From: Actinomycetospora sp. NBRC 106375
Lineage (GTDB): Bacteria > Actinomycetota > Actinomycetes > Mycobacteriales > Pseudonocardiaceae
DNA: 64,000 nt
Assembly: GCF_030269665.1 (NCBI RefSeq)
Contig: NZ_BSTS01000006.1
Span: 62,001-126,000, forward strand
Direction of reading: 5' to 3'
Made by a program: the position numbers and the translations under genes. Positions 3,610 to 21,040 of the stretch are shown piece after piece (the first letter of the stretch is position 1; each line of letters starts with the position of its first letter). The notes below the pieces were generated by a model. It did no database searches, was not told the DNA's origin, and saw only the letters and a list, made by a program, of their open reading frames with translations.

Positions 3610-4521
3610 ATGAGCGCCCCCACGACCGATCGCCACGCAGCCGATCGTCATGTGACGGCCGAGCGCCTCCTGAAGTCGTCGGCGAAGAAGTCGTACGACC
3701 CCGCCGTCGACATCGACTGGGACGCCCCGCTGCCCGCGGACAAGATCTGGGTGCCCGAGCACCGCGTCTCGCTCTACGGCACCGAGCTCTGGGACCGGAT
3801 GACCCCCGAGCAGCGCGTCGAGCTCGGCAAGCACGAGGCGTGCAGCGTCGCCTCGGTCGGCCTGTGGTTCGAGGTCCTGCTCATGCAGCGCCTGCTCAAG
3901 GACTTCTACGCCGAGGACCCGACCACGCCGCGGGCGCAGTTCGCGCTCACCGAGGTCGCCGACGAGTGCCGGCACTCGCAGATGTTCGCCCGCATGGTGC
4001 ACACCGCGGGCGTCGAGCCCTACGGCCCGCAGGAGCGGATCCGCCAGCTCGGCAAGCTCTTCTCGGTGATCAGCTGGGGCCCCGCGGCCTACGGCTCCAT
4101 CCTCGTCGCCGAGGAGGTGCTCGACCGGCTGCAGCGCGAGCAGGCGAACGACGAGAACATCCAGCCGTTGATGCGCCAGGTCAACAAGATCCACATCATG
4201 GAGGAGGCACGCCACGTCTCCTTCGCCCGCGACGAGGTCACCCGCGGGATGGCGCAGCTCGGACCGGCCGAGAAGGCCTACCAGCGCTTCGTCATCGCCT
4301 ACGTCTCGATGATGGTCGTGCGCAGCCTGATCAACCCGAAGGTCTACGCGGCCGTCGGCATCGACCCCGCGGTGGGTCGCCGCGCCGCCCTGGGCAACCC
4401 GCACCACCACGAGATGATCCGCTGGGCGGGCGAGAAGATCATGCCGTTCCTCGACGAGGCGGGTCTCGTCGGTCACCCGGGCATGACGTGGTGGCGCCGG
4501 TCGTTTCTCCTGGGGGACTAG
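3610..4521 (+). CDS. AurF-type diiron N-oxygenase family protein
   Basis: A 303-residue soluble protein of the p-aminobenzoate N-oxygenase (AurF) family, diiron enzymes that use O2 to oxidise amines or related substrates. Carboxylate/histidine ligand patterns are intact: E119-C-R-H122 in VADECRHSQMF, E168/E169 in LVAEEVLDRL, and H195-x3-E199-x2-H202 in NKIHIMEEARHVSFARDE. The ATG at 3610 follows an AGGAGG ribosome-binding site about 10 bp upstream. It is the first gene of an operon with an alpha/beta hydrolase (30 bp gap) and a flavin monooxygenase, divergent from a TetR gene. Actinobacterial homologues are often near lipid or mycolate genes, and the substrate is not deducible here. Confidence 0.88.
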   Translation: MSAPTTDRHAADRHVTAERLLKSSAKKSYDPAVDIDWDAPLPADKIWVPEHRVSLYGTELWDRMTPEQRVELGKHEACSVASVGLWFEVLLMQRLLKDFYAEDPTTPRAQFALTEVADECRHSQMFARMVHTAGVEPYGPQERIRQLGKLFSVISWGPAAYGSILVAEEVLDRLQREQANDENIQPLMRQVNKIHIMEEARHVSFARDEVTRGMAQLGPAEKAYQRFVIAYVSMMVVRSLINPKVYAAVGIDPAVGRRAALGNPHHHEMIRWAGEKIMPFLDEAGLVGHPGMTWWRRSFLLGD

Positions 4522-4551
4522 GGACCGCTGCGACGACAGGAGGAGCCCGCC

Positions 4552-5544
4552 GTGGAGGAGCGCGTCGATCGCTTCACGACGCCGGACGGCACCCGGCTGC
4601 GCGTCGCGGACACCGGGCGGACGGGGGACGGCGACGGCCCGACCCTCGTGCTCGTCCACGGGTGGTCGCAGGACCTGCGCACCTGGGACCGGGTCGTCGA
4701 CGACCTGCGCCGCACCGGCGTGTCCGCGCGCGTCCTGCGCTACGACCACCGCGGCCACGGCGGGTCGGACGCCGCGGCCCGGGGCACGGCGACCATCGAT
4801 ACGGCCGCCGACGACCTCGCCGCGCTGCTGGCCGAGCGCGTCCCGGACGGCCCGCTCGTGCTCGCCGGCCACTCCATGGGGGGCATGACGCTCATGGCGC
4901 TCGCCGAGCGCCACCCGGGGCTGGTGGCCGAGCGGGTCGTCGGGATCGCGTTCGTCGCGACGGCGAGCGACGACATGGCGCGCCTCGACCTCGCCCTGCC
5001 CGGCCGGCGCGGCGAGGCCGTGGGCCGCATCGAGCACGCGCTGGGACCGCTGACCGCGCGCCTGGGCCACCGCGCGCCGGCGGGCGAGATCGGTGACGTC
5101 GGCCGGGCCGGCGGGGCCCGCCCCCGCTCCCGGGCGACGCTGCTCGCCCCCGCGGTGCGCGCGCTCGTCTTCGGGCACCGGCCCCGGCGGGCCGACGTCC
5201 TGTCGGTCGCCGAGCAGGCGCTCGCCGCCCACCCGCCGAGCGTGGCGGCGTTCCGCGCCTCGATCGCCGAGCACCGCCGCCGCACCGCGCTCGCCGCCCT
5301 GTCCGGCACCCCGACCGTCGTGCTCGTCGGCGACCGCGACCGGCTCTGCCCGCAGCGCCACGCGCGGGCGATCGCGGCGGCGCTGCCCGACGCCCGGCTG
5401 GTGCTGCTCCCGGGCGCCGGACACATGATCAATCTCGAGCGCGCCGACGAGGTCGCCGCCCACGTCGCGGGGCTGCTCGCCGCGCCCCCGATCACCACCA
5501 CCGAGGTCATCGCCCAGGAGGACGTCACCCGTGTCAGCGCCTGA
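4552..5544 (+). CDS. Alpha/beta-fold hydrolase
   Basis: A 330-residue hydrolase. The oxyanion region LVLVHGWSQ is at residues 32-40. The nucleophile elbow GHSMGG has Ser108. The acid is in VGDRDRLCP and the base His in PGAGHMINLERAD near the C-terminus, so the triad looks complete. The GTG at 4552 follows a good AGGAGG site. Its last 14 bp overlap the start of the monooxygenase gene, indicating coupled translation. In this operon it could hydrolyse the ester or lactone made by the Baeyer-Villiger-type enzyme downstream; that is inference from gene order. The lid region between about residues 150 and 220 is Arg/Ala-rich. Confidence 0.87.
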   Translation: MEERVDRFTTPDGTRLRVADTGRTGDGDGPTLVLVHGWSQDLRTWDRVVDDLRRTGVSARVLRYDHRGHGGSDAAARGTATIDTAADDLAALLAERVPDGPLVLAGHSMGGMTLMALAERHPGLVAERVVGIAFVATASDDMARLDLALPGRRGEAVGRIEHALGPLTARLGHRAPAGEIGDVGRAGGARPRSRATLLAPAVRALVFGHRPRRADVLSVAEQALAAHPPSVAAFRASIAEHRRRTALAALSGTPTVVLVGDRDRLCPQRHARAIAAALPDARLVLLPGAGHMINLERADEVAAHVAGLLAAPPITTTEVIAQEDVTRVSA

Positions 5545-16924: not shown

Positions 16925-17593
16925 CTACGCGCGGTAGGCCTCCACGGCGTGGCCGAACACCACGATGTTGTCCTCGTAGCTGCGCACGTCGGCGTCGAAG
17001 TCGCCGCCGCAGGTGATCATCCGCAGCGCGGGGTCGCCGGTCGGCCCGTAGACCTCCGCGGTCGGGAAGGCGTTCTTCGACACCTCCGCGACCCGGTCTA
17101 CCGCGTAGACCACCGTGACGCCGTCGGTGCGCTCGACGAGCACCTGGTCGCCGGCCGCGACGTCGGCGAGACGGGCGAACCCGCCCTGCGCGCCGTGGTA
17201 GTTCACGTGGGAGGCGTAGATCGCCGGGCCGGTCTGGCCGGGCGCCGCGCCGCCGCGGTAGTGGCCGACGGTCGTGGCGTCGCCCGGGACCTCGAGGCGG
17301 CGGTCCTCGGTCTGGCCCAGCTCGGTGAGCTGCCGGGTGTCGACCCCGATCGACGGGATGCGCAGCGCCGCCGTCTCCGCGGGCTCGAGCGGCAGCGCCA
17401 CCGCGGTCCGCTGGGCGGGGAGCTCGACGGTCGCGGGGCCGGTGCGCTGGGACGAGCCGCCCTGCACGTAGGCCACCACCGCGAGCAGCGCGAGGACGAC
17501 GAGGATGCCGATCGTCGCCCGGGTCCCGACGCCGGAGCCCTTCGCGGTCCTGTCGGCCCGCGGTTCCGGGGTGCGGTCGGTCGTCGTGGTCAC
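16925..17593 (-). CDS. Class F-like sortase
   Basis: A 222-residue membrane-anchored transpeptidase. One N-terminal helix is at about residues 24-43, and the sortase fold follows from about 75. Catalytic residues are visible: His129 in ASHVNYHG, Cys195 in LRMITCGGDF, and Arg204 in VRSYEDNIVVF as the likely third residue. The sequence RIPSIGVD before the core is typical of class E/F enzymes. It would cut a sorting signal on the outer face and join the protein to the cell wall. It is the second gene after an Excalibur surface protein (5-bp gap), so that protein is its probable substrate. Confidence 0.92.
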   Translation of the reverse strand: MTTTTDRTPEPRADRTAKGSGVGTRATIGILVVLALLAVVAYVQGGSSQRTGPATVELPAQRTAVALPLEPAETAALRIPSIGVDTRQLTELGQTEDRRLEVPGDATTVGHYRGGAAPGQTGPAIYASHVNYHGAQGGFARLADVAAGDQVLVERTDGVTVVYAVDRVAEVSKNAFPTAEVYGPTGDPALRMITCGGDFDADVRSYEDNIVVFGHAVEAYRA

Positions 17594-17598
17594 GGCGC

Positions 17599-18747
17599 TC
17601 AGCCCTGCCGCGCGAAGCGACGGACCACGACCATGCCGGTGACACCGAGGCCCGCGAGGGCGCCGGCCGCCAGCGCGACCTCGACGTCCGACGCGCCGGT
17701 CCCCGTGCTGCCGTCACCGGTCGAGACGCCACCCTCGGGGTAGCCGTCGTAGTGGACGTAGGCGACCTCGTCGTCGTCGTGCGCGTTCCACTCGCACGCC
17801 ACACCGTCGTCGTCCCCGTCGAGGCGGAACGGGTCGGAGCGGTCCCAGTCGAGGATCGCGTTGGCCTCGTCGTAGGTCAGCTCGTCGCAGTCGACGTCGT
17901 AGCGGTGGTTCCAGTACGTGAAGTACACGGACCGGACGTCGAAGGAGACGCACTCGTGGTAGCAGCGGACGACCTCCTGCTGCACCTGCTCCGGGTCGGC
18001 GGTGCCGTTGACCGCGAGACGGTCGCACAGGCCGGTCAGCGCCTGGCTCACCTGCGTGACCTGCGCGTCGGGCACGGACAGCCCGCTCGCGAAGAACCGG
18101 CACACCTGCTGGGCGGTCGGGTTCGACGGCAGCTCGGTGAGGCGGTTCCCGCCGAGGGGCAGGTTGCCCTTCCCGGGCTCGAAGGTGACCGGGAGCGTGG
18201 TGCCGTCCGGCAGCTGGATGGTCGTGAGCTGCTGGGCGAGCTGCTGGCCGCTGTCGGCGACCGCCGCGCGGGTCACCGGGGCGCCGGCGCCGGTGGCGTC
18301 GTCACCGCCCGTGGTCGTGGGCGCGGTCGCGGTGGTGGTCTCGGTCGTGGTCTCGGCGGTCCCCGTCGTCGAGCCCGGGGCGGTCGCCGCACTGCGGGCG
18401 GCGCTCGACTGCCCGCTCCCGGAGCCGGGGGTGGCCGACCCGCCGCCGTCGACCGCGTCGGTGGTGCCGTCCGCCGGGGTGACCCCTGCGACGCTGCCCG
18501 AGGGGACGGAGCTCGAGGTGTCGGTCTCGGGCGCGGTCGAGGTGGTCGTCGTGGTCGTCGTGGTCGTCGAGGAGCTCGTGGTCTCGCACGCCCCGCCGAC
18601 CCACGACCCTCCGGCGTCGTTGCACTCGGCCTCGGTCGTCGCGCTGGTGATCGGCGCCGCGAGCGCCAGACCCGGAGCCATCACCGCCAGTCCCACGCAG
18701 CCGGCCAGCACGACCGCGGCGCTGCGGCTGCTCCGTCGACCCCTCAT
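17599..18747 (-). CDS. Excalibur-domain surface protein, probable sortase substrate A
   Basis: A 382-residue exported protein. Residues 1-31 form a signal peptide ending LALAAP. A small two-cysteine motif (ECNDAGGSWVGGACE) is at 41-55. A Ser/Thr-rich stalk with a run of Thr covers about 56-160. A Cys-containing helical region leads to the Excalibur calcium-binding motif at 287-320 (DGDDDGVACEW). The tail is GYPEGGVSTGDG (335-346), a hydrophobic helix (about 354-375) and RRFARQG. Signal, helix and basic tail have the layout of a cell-wall sorting signal, but without LPxTG. The same tail occurs in the protein at 19001. It is followed by a sortase gene after 5 bp. Confidence 0.86.
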   Translation of the reverse strand: MRGRRSSRSAAVVLAGCVGLAVMAPGLALAAPITSATTEAECNDAGGSWVGGACETTSSSTTTTTTTTTSTAPETDTSSSVPSGSVAGVTPADGTTDAVDGGGSATPGSGSGQSSAARSAATAPGSTTGTAETTTETTTATAPTTTGGDDATGAGAPVTRAAVADSGQQLAQQLTTIQLPDGTTLPVTFEPGKGNLPLGGNRLTELPSNPTAQQVCRFFASGLSVPDAQVTQVSQALTGLCDRLAVNGTADPEQVQQEVVRCYHECVSFDVRSVYFTYWNHRYDVDCDELTYDEANAILDWDRSDPFRLDGDDDGVACEWNAHDDDEVAYVHYDGYPEGGVSTGDGSTGTGASDVEVALAAGALAGLGVTGMVVVRRFARQG

Positions 18748-19000
18748 CCGTACTCCTCGTCAGGTGCCTGCGGCCGAGTGCTCTCAGCCGTATGACCCAC
18801 GCTTCGCACGGAGAGTCACCGTCGTTACCGGATCTTTGGCCTGCCTTGGGAGACCACCCGTTCAGGTGACGGCGCGACGTCGTCGCCGGTGATCACAGCG
18901 CGGCGCCCCGACGAAGACGGCAAGGCCGACATCCGTACCCATCCGAGGCCCACGCCGTTAGGGCGATCGGAGGACACGGGCGAACAGATCGGGTCGGGAC

Positions 19001-19684
19001 ATGGGGAACGGGCGTCGGCGCGTGGCGAGCGCGCTGGTCGGGCTGGTCGCGGCGGGGATGATCTCCACCGCCGGGATCGCGGTCGCGGAGGACGGGGACG
19101 GCGGCGGAAGCGGCTCGGGCTCGGGCTCGGGCGACAACAGCCTCGGGTCGGTGATCGGCGGCCTGATCGACGGCCTCACCGGGCTCCTCGACGGCGACGG
19201 CTCGTCGCCGGTCCCGGACATCCCGTCGCTGCCGCTCCCGGACACGGGCAGCTCGTCGAGCACGTCGTCGCCGACCACCTCGCCGTCCACCGGCGTCACC
19301 ACGGAGACCGAGACCGTGACCGTGCCGCCGGTGGTCTACGGCCCGGGGAGCCCGTACTACCACTACGTGGTCCCGGTCCGACCCGTGTACCTGCTGAACT
19401 GTTGGGACTTCGCGGACCGCGCGGACGCCCAGGCGGTGCTCATCGCCGACCCGTCGGACCCGAACAACCTCGACGGCGACAACGACGGCCGGGCGTGCGA
19501 GTGGGGCGTCGGCGGTCCCCGCTACCACCACGGCTACCCCGTCGGCGGCGTCGCCACGGGTGACGGCTCCGGGTCGGGTGCGACGTTCGGTCAGGTCGCC
19601 TTCCTGGTGATCGCCGGCATCGGGGCGGGCGCCGGGGTCGTGCGCGGCGGCCAGGTCGTCGCGGCCCGGCGGCGGACGGTCTGA
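19001..19684 (+). CDS. Excalibur-domain surface protein, probable sortase substrate B
   Basis: A 227-residue exported protein. The signal peptide ([20 protein letters not shown]) ends near AVAED. A Gly/Ser/Asp-rich linker and a Ser/Thr stalk follow. The Excalibur domain covers about 134-171 ([13 protein letters not shown], then [12 protein letters not shown]). The C-terminus is [12 protein letters not shown] (178-189), a hydrophobic helix (about 199-215) and AARRRTV. An LPDTG string at 79-83 is internal and not followed by a helix, so it is unlikely to be the sorting signal. Two sortase genes follow, the first only 1 bp after the stop. It is divergent from substrate A; the 253 bp between them must hold both promoters. 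Confidence 0.86.
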
Positions 19685-19685
19685 G

Positions 19686-20354
19686 GTGGCCGCACCCGAG
19701 GCACCGCCGGAGACCCCGTCCCGGCGCGAGGGCGTCCTCGACAAGGCGACCGGCCGCATCACCGCTCTCGTGCTCGCGGTGCTCGCCGTCGGCGTCCTGG
19801 TCGCGTTCCTCAACAGCGGCGACGAACCGGAGGGGCCGCGGAGCACGTCGCTGCCGCCGGCCGAGCGCGTGAGCGTGCCGACGCCGCTGCCGGCGGCGCC
19901 GATCACCGGTGTCGACGCCCCGACGATCGGGCTGAGCACCGGCGACACCACCAGCCTGGGCCTGCGCGACGACAACTCCCTCGACGTGCCCAGCAACGCG
20001 GCCACGGTCGGCTGGTACGAGCGCAGCGCGAGCCCGGGCGAGGTCGGGCCGGCCGTGCTCGCCGCGCACGTGGACTTCCGCGGCGAGCAGGGCGCCTTCG
20101 CCCGCCTCGGTCAGCTGCGGCCCGGCGACACCGTCGAGGTCCACCGGGCCGACGACACCACCGCCGTGTTCGCCGTCGAGAGCGTCGACCGGTTCGCCAA
20201 GGACGCCTTCCCGACCGACGCGGTCTACGGCCCGACGCCCGACAGTCAGCTCCGCATGATCACCTGCGGGGGCGTGTTCGACGAGCGGACCCACAGCTAC
20301 CAGGACAACGTCGTCGTCCGGGCGCACCTCACCGGGGCGTACCGGCCGATCTGA
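19686..20354 (+). CDS. Class F-like sortase, second paralogue
   Basis: A 222-residue sortase with an N-terminal membrane helix (about 25-42). The active-site His128 is in LAAHVDFRG and Cys194 in LRMITCGGVF. At the position of Arg204 in the leftward sortase it has His203 (THSYQDNVVV); Arg201 is close and may substitute. The GTG at 19686 is one base after the Excalibur gene stop, so translation is coupled. The product should sit at the membrane and process that protein. It is more similar to the third sortase than to the first (GVDAPTIGLST and VGPAVLAAHV shared), implying a local duplication. Confidence 0.9.
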   Translation: MAAPEAPPETPSRREGVLDKATGRITALVLAVLAVGVLVAFLNSGDEPEGPRSTSLPPAERVSVPTPLPAAPITGVDAPTIGLSTGDTTSLGLRDDNSLDVPSNAATVGWYERSASPGEVGPAVLAAHVDFRGEQGAFARLGQLRPGDTVEVHRADDTTAVFAVESVDRFAKDAFPTDAVYGPTPDSQLRMITCGGVFDERTHSYQDNVVVRAHLTGAYRPI

Positions 20355-20410
20355 GCCGCCCGACCGACACGCCGGTCGTCCGACCCACGCCGACACCGCT
20401 CCGTGGGGGC

Positions 20411-21040
20411 ATGCTCGACCGGGTGAACGGCCGGATCGCCGCCCTCGTGCTCGCCGTGCTCGCGGTCGGCGTGCTCGTGGCGTTCGTCGGGCAGGGCAGC
20501 GGCCCGTCCGATCCCCCCGCGGCGGCCGGTCCGCCGGTCCCGCCCGGCACGCGGGTGCCCGTCCCCGTGCCGCTGCCCGCCGCGGACATCACCGGCGTCG
20601 ACGCCCCGACGATCGGGCTCTCCACCCGCGAGACCACCGACCTGGGTCTGGGGCCCGACGACGCCCTCGAGGTGCCGCGGGACGCCGAGACGGTCGGGTG
20701 GTACGACGGCGGAGTCAGCCCCGGCGAGGTGGGCCCCGCCGTGCTCGCGGCCCACGTCAACTACCGCGGTGAGCAGGGCGCCTTCATCCACATCGGGCGG
20801 ATGAAGGCGGGCGACGCCGTCGAGGTCCACCGCGACGACGACACCACCGCGGTCTTCACCGTCGACCGCGTCGAGCAGGTCGCGAAGGCCGCGTTCCCCA
20901 CCGAGGCCGTGTACGCGCCGACGCCCGACGGGGAGCTCCGCATGATCACCTGCGGTGGGGAGTTCGACGGCGGCGCCGGCAGCTACGTGGACAACGTCGT
21001 CGTCTTCGCCCACCTCACCTCGGCCTACCGCACCGCCTGA
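20411..21040 (+). CDS. Class F-like sortase, third paralogue with an altered active-site region
   Basis: A 209-residue sortase. The membrane helix is at residues 8-26, His115 is in LAAHVNYRG and Cys181 in LRMITCGGEF. The Arg that follows the Cys in the first sortase is replaced by Gly (GAGSYVDNVVVF), and the only Arg after the Cys is in the terminal AYRTA. Activity may therefore be reduced or use a different residue. The ATG at 20411 gives a short cytoplasmic tail; an upstream non-ATG start in the same open frame is possible. It is probably cotranscribed with the two genes before it. Confidence 0.88.
   Translation: MLDRVNGRIAALVLAVLAVGVLVAFVGQGSGPSDPPAAAGPPVPPGTRVPVPVPLPAADITGVDAPTIGLSTRETTDLGLGPDDALEVPRDAETVGWYDGGVSPGEVGPAVLAAHVNYRGEQGAFIHIGRMKAGDAVEVHRDDDTTAVFTVDRVEQVAKAAFPTEAVYAPTPDGELRMITCGGEFDGGAGSYVDNVVVFAHLTSAYRTA

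Follow-up and report, generated by a model that had tools for sequence, protein, structure and literature searches.

In a 64,000-nucleotide stretch of DNA from Actinomycetospora sp. NBRC 106375 (contig NZ_BSTS01000006.1, positions 62,001 to 126,000; the whole stretch is called the window here), two gene pairs lie back to back, each made up of a gene for a putatively exported Excalibur-like protein (P1, P2) and, directly behind it, a gene for a class F sortase (S1, S2). The two proteins share a C-terminal motif, GGVxTG, by which the adjoining class F sortases very probably sort them. We put at about 0.8 the probability that the locus holds, as its sequence suggests, two dedicated substrate-sortase pairs in which the class F enzyme would cut GVxTG and fix the Excalibur-like protein to the cell wall. 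Motifs of this kind seem to serve widely as class F signals in Actinomycetota, where they are carried by varied cargo proteins and, in a subset of them, followed by neither a helix nor a tail.

Two divergent gene pairs and their C-terminal signals

The pairs are placed divergently, with 5 bp between the P1 and S1 open reading frames (ORFs) and 1 bp between those of P2 and S2; the ORFs, coordinates and gaps agree with a preliminary description of the locus made from the sequence alone. A third sortase gene (S3) follows the second pair. It falls within the coordinates of that description, which did not mention it; immediately 5' of it there is no separate substrate gene. Relatives within the genus repeat the divergent locus, with endings that read GGV[SA]TGDGS and GG[VI]AAGDGS, and sortase identity to A. 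lemnae, among the best named relatives, is 75%.

Translation confirmed the C-terminal arrangement that had been described for both proteins. P1 ends in PEGGVSTGDGSTGTGASD-helix-RRFARQG, and P2 carries PVGGVATG followed by a hydrophobic helix and a tail ending in RRRTV. In broad terms, both thus have the layout of a sorting signal, a motif followed by a hydrophobic helix and a basic C-terminal tail, with secretion judged by eye from the N-terminus. As previously claimed, neither LPxTG nor LAxTG stands before the helix and tail of P1 or P2, where PEGGVSTG and PVGGVATG are found instead; an LPDTG inside P2 (19235-19249) lies far from the C-terminus. The description of both as Excalibur proteins holds in part: a signature is readable in each (DGDDDGVACE in P1) and fits the pattern DxDxDGxxCE, which we take to be that of Excalibur, but both Pfam scores (PF05901) fall below the gathering cut-off (Table 1). 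No publication treating a sortase, a sorting signal and Excalibur together was found in the literature searched.

The class F-like label of the paired sortases was upheld by NCBIfam model NF033748, whose cut-off of 166 bits is passed by S2 and S3, with S1 somewhat under it, by 7 bits. All three align along nearly the whole profile and possess the His and Cys residues. An AlphaFold model of S2, computed from a 54-sequence alignment (A2), had a mean pLDDT of 85.9 and reached at least 90 in 147 of its 222 residues, and Foldseek aligned it with solved sortases at a probability of 1.00. Sequence searches of solved structures gave no match for S1 alone and weak matches for profiles; structure 5uus, class F according to a figure legend (PMC8361268), matched the profiles only at E 0.019.

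By analogy with the sortase family, we infer motif recognition, cleavage and transfer as follows. The substrate would be exported via its N-terminal signal peptide and stall in the membrane via its C-terminal helix and basic tail, with P-x-G-G-V-x-T-G-D-G-S presented to the class F sortase that the adjacent gene encodes. The cysteine of this enzyme would cut, most likely between T and G of GVxTG, and the substrate would be moved to a cell wall precursor, leaving the Excalibur-like protein on the wall.

Table 1. Features of the sortase locus, numbered from the first nucleotide of the window.
Feature	Position	Strand	Basis
Class F sortase S1, 222 aa; His129, Cys195, Asn209	16925..17593	-	NF033748 158.7 bits, cut-off 166
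Putative substrate P1, 382 aa: N-terminal hydrophobic signal, S/T-rich stretch, Excalibur-like domain, sorting signal	17599..18747	-	ORF; NF058571 28.3 bits, cut-off 29
P1 basic tail RRFARQG	17602..17622	-	Translation
P1 hydrophobic helix VEVALAAGALAGLGVTGMVVV	17623..17685	-	Translation
P1 motif core PEGGVSTG	17716..17739	-	Translation
P1 Excalibur-like stretch, weak	17788..17901	-	Sequence; Pfam 11.0 bits, cut-off 22
Putative substrate P2, 227 aa, layout like P1	19001..19684	+	ORF; NF058571 14.5 bits, cut-off 29
P2 Excalibur-like domain	19397..19501	+	Pfam 17.6 bits, cut-off 22
P2 motif core PVGGVATG	19538..19561	+	Translation
P2 hydrophobic helix	19589..19645	+	Translation
P2 basic tail, ends ARRRTV	19646..19681	+	Translation
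Class F sortase S2, 222 aa; His128, Cys194, Asn208; model helix 21-42 and sortase fold	19686..20354	+	NF033748 173.5 bits; AlphaFold; Foldseek
Class F sortase S3, 209 aa, tandem	20411..21040	+	NF033748 168.6 bits; 67% identical to S2

The motif beside class F sortases in Actinomycetota

Same-strand ORFs ending at most 900 bp before a sortase match were searched, within 80 residues of their end, for a strict core, P.G[AGSHPV][VPAMIS].[TAS]G. Of the 213 sortase matches, 120 have a gene with this core on their 5' side, distributed as 7 of 12 in the genome of the window, 62 of 80 in a named set, 23 of 69 in a phylum set and 28 of 52 in a class set. The named set consists of the best 80 of 588 related stretches, chosen by sortase similarity, and leans heavily on Amycolatopsis, while the phylum set takes in all 69 class F matches of the phylum sample from other genomes. 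The class set has one match from each of 52 genomes, among the matches listed (about 176 bits and more), with four already-sampled genomes omitted; in 50 of the 52 the lowest-scoring listed match was taken. Class F sortases (E <= 1e-10) were found in 90 of 148 class-level genomes. Because the expression was set after the loci had been seen and the named set is skewed to Amycolatopsis, counts such as 120 of 213 are descriptive and do not amount to a blind test.

Control ORFs from the same loci carried the core in 22 of 1056 cases, 18 of which are, by our own reading, further motif proteins of these loci (on the divergent strand or farther off), and 4 look unrelated. The core also occurred in 1 of 120 reversed C-termini and in 142 of 12,000 shuffles, and together these three comparisons rule out chance or low complexity as its source. 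A position matrix for which only the named set served as training data recovered, at a threshold of 12, 20 of 59 held-out upstream ORFs of the phylum set and 20 of 589 controls; 18 of the latter we again read as additional motif proteins belonging to these loci. This matrix had strict columns and undercounted distant members.

In the genome of the window, motif proteins lie directly 5' of seven sortases: the two described above, two with GGVETG (C8, C18; C numbers are our handles within this genome, L numbers those for the loci surveyed), two with GGVAAG (C36, C49) and one with GGVDTG (C4). This motif type already has a database family, NCBIfam NF058571 (GVDTG_CTERM, 'GVDTG sorting domain'), and is known to curators; no paper on a GVDTG sorting motif was found in the literature searched, where full-text matches to GVDTG were unrelated to the topic. 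The co-occurrence with class F sortases across actinobacteria that the preliminary description had proposed as a check was found with this family as well as in the upstream genes. Among 119 genomes of the phylum sample, that of the window included, 26 have class F sortases and 7 have NF058571 (E <= 1e-5), all 7 within those 26. Eight of the nine NF058571 matches in the sample lie 208-655 bp 5' of a class F gene on the same strand, and the ninth is near a contig end; in the genome of the window, 6 of the 7 best matches adjoin sortases.

A different enzyme could in principle handle these proteins, namely a class E sortase with a housekeeping role, and class E enzymes do accept an unusual P3 residue (LAxTG; PMC5148588). 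This seems highly improbable, given that class F genes stand immediately beside the substrate genes time and again and that, among 136 upstream ORFs collected regardless of any motif, a single one had L[PA]xTG within its last 80 residues. Furthermore, among the 12 sortase-family matches of the genome, a search in which class E models were not used, only C16 is not class F, and it does not have the catalytic Cys. The substrate-sortase pairs are real and probably dedicated.

The 120 loci yielded 113 distinct core windows, in which the P4-P3 residues are GV (46), AP (24), GA (15), GI (6), GM (6) and a few others, and the P1 position, before the presumed cut, is T in 93, A in 19 and S in 1. T precedes G in 17 of 17 distinct windows from proteins with no tail (see below) and in 79% of the 96 tailed ones, the expression also allowing A and S; A takes its place in 20% of the tailed windows. 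A second G follows two places after TG in 83% of the tailed windows, and QV often precedes P, with Q in 41% and V in 33% of the tailed windows and each of them in 71% of the 17 tail-less ones. GGVxTG, which had been proposed as the recognition site, stands as the very probable sorting motif of the adjacent sortases, but the core is longer and looser, P-x-G-[G/A/S/H/P]-[V/P/A/I/M]-x-[T/A/S]-G, usually followed by x-G, and the motif type was already covered by NF058571. The signal keeps the LPxTG register, with a small residue for Leu, V, P or A for Pro, and an extra P-x-G in front. The conserved P, G and final G and the absent Leu at P4 are not independent findings, because the expression fixed them; the proportions of residues inside these columns do count as independent, like the second G and the QV.

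An alignment of 66 substrates, chosen for having the motif (62 by the expression and 4 from the genome of the window, so that their P and G are present by selection), had a mean column identity of 13%, and the C-terminal signal is therefore their common feature. Their recognizable cargo includes Excalibur (21 proteins), DUF4397 (6) and CHRD (3), so that Excalibur is one of several cargo domains. At three loci (L362, L363, L364) the motif and hydrophobic stretch are followed by a long acidic tail in place of a basic one.

Signals without a helix or tail

At 19 of the 120 loci, only 1-13 residues follow TG before the protein ends, and both helix and tail are missing; these are the C4 protein of the same genome and 18 others, whereas P1 and P2 both carry tails. 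Such proteins end, for example, in ...HVPSGGVDTGN, ...VVPAGAPQTGDGSLA.., ...YAPKGGIETGFGATAA or ...PRGGAQTGGGGMAGR, directly before the stop codon. All 19 begin with a hydrophobic stretch, recognized in 3 by eye (C4, L253, L291) and in 16 with a script that picked the start with the most hydrophobic N-terminus and is hence biased toward this result. The N-termini of L171 and L175 look like a lipobox, going by what we take to be its consensus.

The C4 locus (L029; sortase at 4158-4790) and its relatives L318-L332 have a tail-less protein ending in GGVDTGN or GGV[DN]TGDGS.. right before the class F sortase. A tail-less partner accompanies 15 of 15 full-length genus orthologues of the C4 sortase, with 8 ending in GGVDTGN, 6 in DGSFQ and 1 in DGSYGP; a sixteenth, partial match (L333) was left out of this count. 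In the nine loci inspected, between a few and some tens of bases separate the stop of the tail-less gene from the sortase match that follows it. Mean pairwise identity among the 15 proteins is 89% in the core, 72% over the 20 C-terminal residues around it and 26% in the stretch 52-112 residues upstream. The C4 protein also contains LPSTG repeats, which are absent from the eight other orthologues inspected.

Sequencing error or decay is ruled out as the origin of these proteins by the 15 of 15 orthologous loci and by the identity of the core compared with the upstream stretch. In a FastTree phylogeny of 119 sortases the trait requires 7 changes, at least 3 of them on supported branches (gains or losses), and it is clustered, with 0 of 500 shuffles giving as low a number. 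The orthologous loci, the core identity and this clustering show that the tail-less trait is inherited, that error does not explain it and that it changed on more than one occasion. Fusion of the tail-less protein to the transmembrane segment of the sortase by frameshift was also considered and dropped on reasoning, as the topology would place the sortase in the cytoplasm.

These proteins bear on the reading in which PxGGVxTGxG is a flexible linker in front of an ordinary tail anchor, and the sortase neighbourhood reflects shared regulation. The segment is indeed Gly-rich, and a helix and basic tail would alone hold a protein in the membrane. We consider this quite unlikely, since the tail-less proteins keep the motif though they have no helix to link, their core is far more conserved than the sequence upstream, and the motif is frequent 5' of sortases and rare in control ORFs, shuffles and reversed C-termini.

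Seven Amycolatopsis operons (L055, L059, L062, L063, L066, L074, L099) encode a tail-less protein, a tailed motif protein and then a sortase, the tail-less protein ending in P-x-G-[AG]-A-[KRH]-A-G-D-G-S-[LM]-A-x; L062 and L074 hold another protein, ending in GAPQTGGGALG.

The sortases and their relation to known systems

The catalytic triad His-Cys-Arg is described as common to all sortases (PMC13257024). We aligned 145 sortases (149 loci minus 7 lacking TC[GAS][GE], plus 3 from the genome of the window), an entry requirement that makes the conservation of Cys uninformative. Every one of the 145 retains His. Where the last strand begins, in the column in which some relatives have the presumed catalytic Arg, Asn is found in 138 and Arg in 7, and Asn is invariant across the 54 sequences of alignment A2. 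Judging from this column, Asn appears to stand in place of the catalytic Arg in class F sortases; a further Arg lies four residues before Cys in 78% of the aligned sequences. A single narrow literature search on catalytic arginine/asparagine exchange found nothing.

The seven Arg-bearing sortases (L199, L202-L207) all come from one family of genomes and showed no partner protein, although the locus of L205 is cut by the end of its contig. L315, another relative with Arg, does have a partner, at a distance, and we therefore draw no rule that links Arg or Asn to the absence or presence of a partner. Among sortase residues co-varying with P4, P3, P1 or the missing tail, none of the top columns reached significance when independent pairs were compared, for which supported branches offered only 3-7 pairs.

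Given the Asn, the motif could instead be a docking or regulatory sequence for a class F sortase that lost transpeptidation when Arg became Asn, and would then not be a cleavage site. Tail-less proteins would suit a binding partner, and A replaces T at the presumed cut position in a fifth of the tailed windows. We regard this as unlikely, in view of the retention of His in every aligned sortase, the absence of the catalytic Cys from only two (C1, L034; C16, L033) of the 12 sortase-family matches of the genome, and the predominance of T before G in tailed windows and its constancy in tail-less ones.

Some sortases have unusual architectures. Single proteins fusing DUF4397 to a class F sortase domain (Pfam) were observed at C15 (L028), L064, L067 and L083, and the L083 fusion keeps a motif-like PNGGVPAGYGG ahead of its sortase part, as if substrate and sortase genes had merged. 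Eight sortases (L268, L270, L271, L272, L278, L279, L282, L285) have Pro/Ala-rich C-terminal extensions, and near them lies an opposite-strand gene ending in GGVAAGGGGM.., a helix and a basic tail.

Several points weigh against dedicated pairs in which class F sortases cut GVxTG. The expression was chosen after inspection, and 93 of the 213 matches have no strict core in the tested place. Many of these show looser forms by eye (PPKLGVETGGGG, PKAGADTGAGG, PTRAPHAGGGG, PxGVPAG, PTRVDAG, or a divergent gene with GGVAAGGGG); some show no motif form at all by eye (L081, L096, L162, L164, L264 and others), and none was seen beside the seven Arg sortases or the DUF4397-fused sortases. As proteins, P1 and P2 both score below the NF058571 cut-off, P1 by less than one bit; in a six-frame search of the genome the longer open frame of P1 passed it (33.2 bits) and that of P2 did not (18.3 bits). 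The apparent replacement of the catalytic Arg by Asn could mean an altered or weak activity. The one biochemically studied class F enzyme met in the literature searched, sortase F of P. acnes, is reported to use LPQTG in vitro (Di Girolamo 2019, as cited in PMC7451113), and a quadruple srtF deletion in Actinoplanes missouriensis left the phenotype unchanged (PMC13251363). Given the last two results, the role of class F sortases may be conditional.

More tentatively, and at somewhat less than even odds in our estimate, class F would be a distinct branch of sortases with Asn for the catalytic Arg, which recognizes an extended P-x-G-[small]-[V/P/A]-x-T-G, often after QV, and anchors even secreted proteins without helix and tail that are free in the envelope or held only by an N-terminal lipid. 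The extended recognition is what would make anchoring of such proteins possible. In the literature searched, which largely comprised papers outside subscription, we found no description for class F of the class-wide pairing, of an extended core, of tail-less signals or of the Asn.

Two 2026 papers describe the roles of class F sortases as still unknown or not very conclusive (PMC13251363, PMC13257024). With the motif directly beside more than half of the sortase matches, the question of class F substrates becomes one for peptide assays, and the motif yields candidate substrates in many actinobacteria, perhaps among genes earlier set aside for want of an LPxTG-like pentapeptide. A membrane anchor is, as a rule, required of a sorting signal, and the tail-less group would widen that rule; small-residue motifs together with an Asn enzyme could serve protein ligation.

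The closest described counterpart of the signal is NF058571, which shares the motif type, helix and basic tail and matches 40 of the 66 substrates at E <= 0.01; the other 26 are unmatched at this threshold, and its 44-position model spans a stretch absent from tail-less proteins. Sortase F of P. acnes is likewise called class F, but is described as a housekeeping enzyme using LPQTG, whereas dedicated pairs with GGVxTG are found here. In A. missouriensis, AMIS_11010 and AMIS_36440, beside srtF1 and srtF4, were suggested as possible SrtF substrates (PMC13251363). They resemble the proteins reported here in having a signal peptide, a transmembrane region and a basic tail next to class F sortases; the authors of that study reported no pentapeptide in them and set them aside. 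Class E sortases are likewise actinobacterial and use a non-LPxTG motif, but Leu at P4 and the active-site Arg (R329) are retained in them.

For the tail-less group, the precedent is AbpA of oral streptococci, in which KAGKALPKTSAVK ends three residues after LPKTS with no helix or charged tail and is needed for wall anchoring, and whose C-terminal LPKTS-AVK also anchors green fluorescent protein (PMC4974636). Sortase A of S. aureus, in addition, builds soluble LPETG peptides into the wall (PMC3929722). Counting against tail-less anchoring, AbpA is partly lost to the medium (PMC4974636), and a C. difficile substrate needs its helix and tail for sorting (PMC5569036). AbpA and SrtB resemble the loci described here in that the substrate gene shares a locus with its sortase and the signal has no helix or tail; they differ in motif, enzyme and host, with LPKTS, SrtB and streptococci on the one side and P-x-G-G-V-x-T-G, class F and actinobacteria on the other, where the tail-less proteins lie outside the window.

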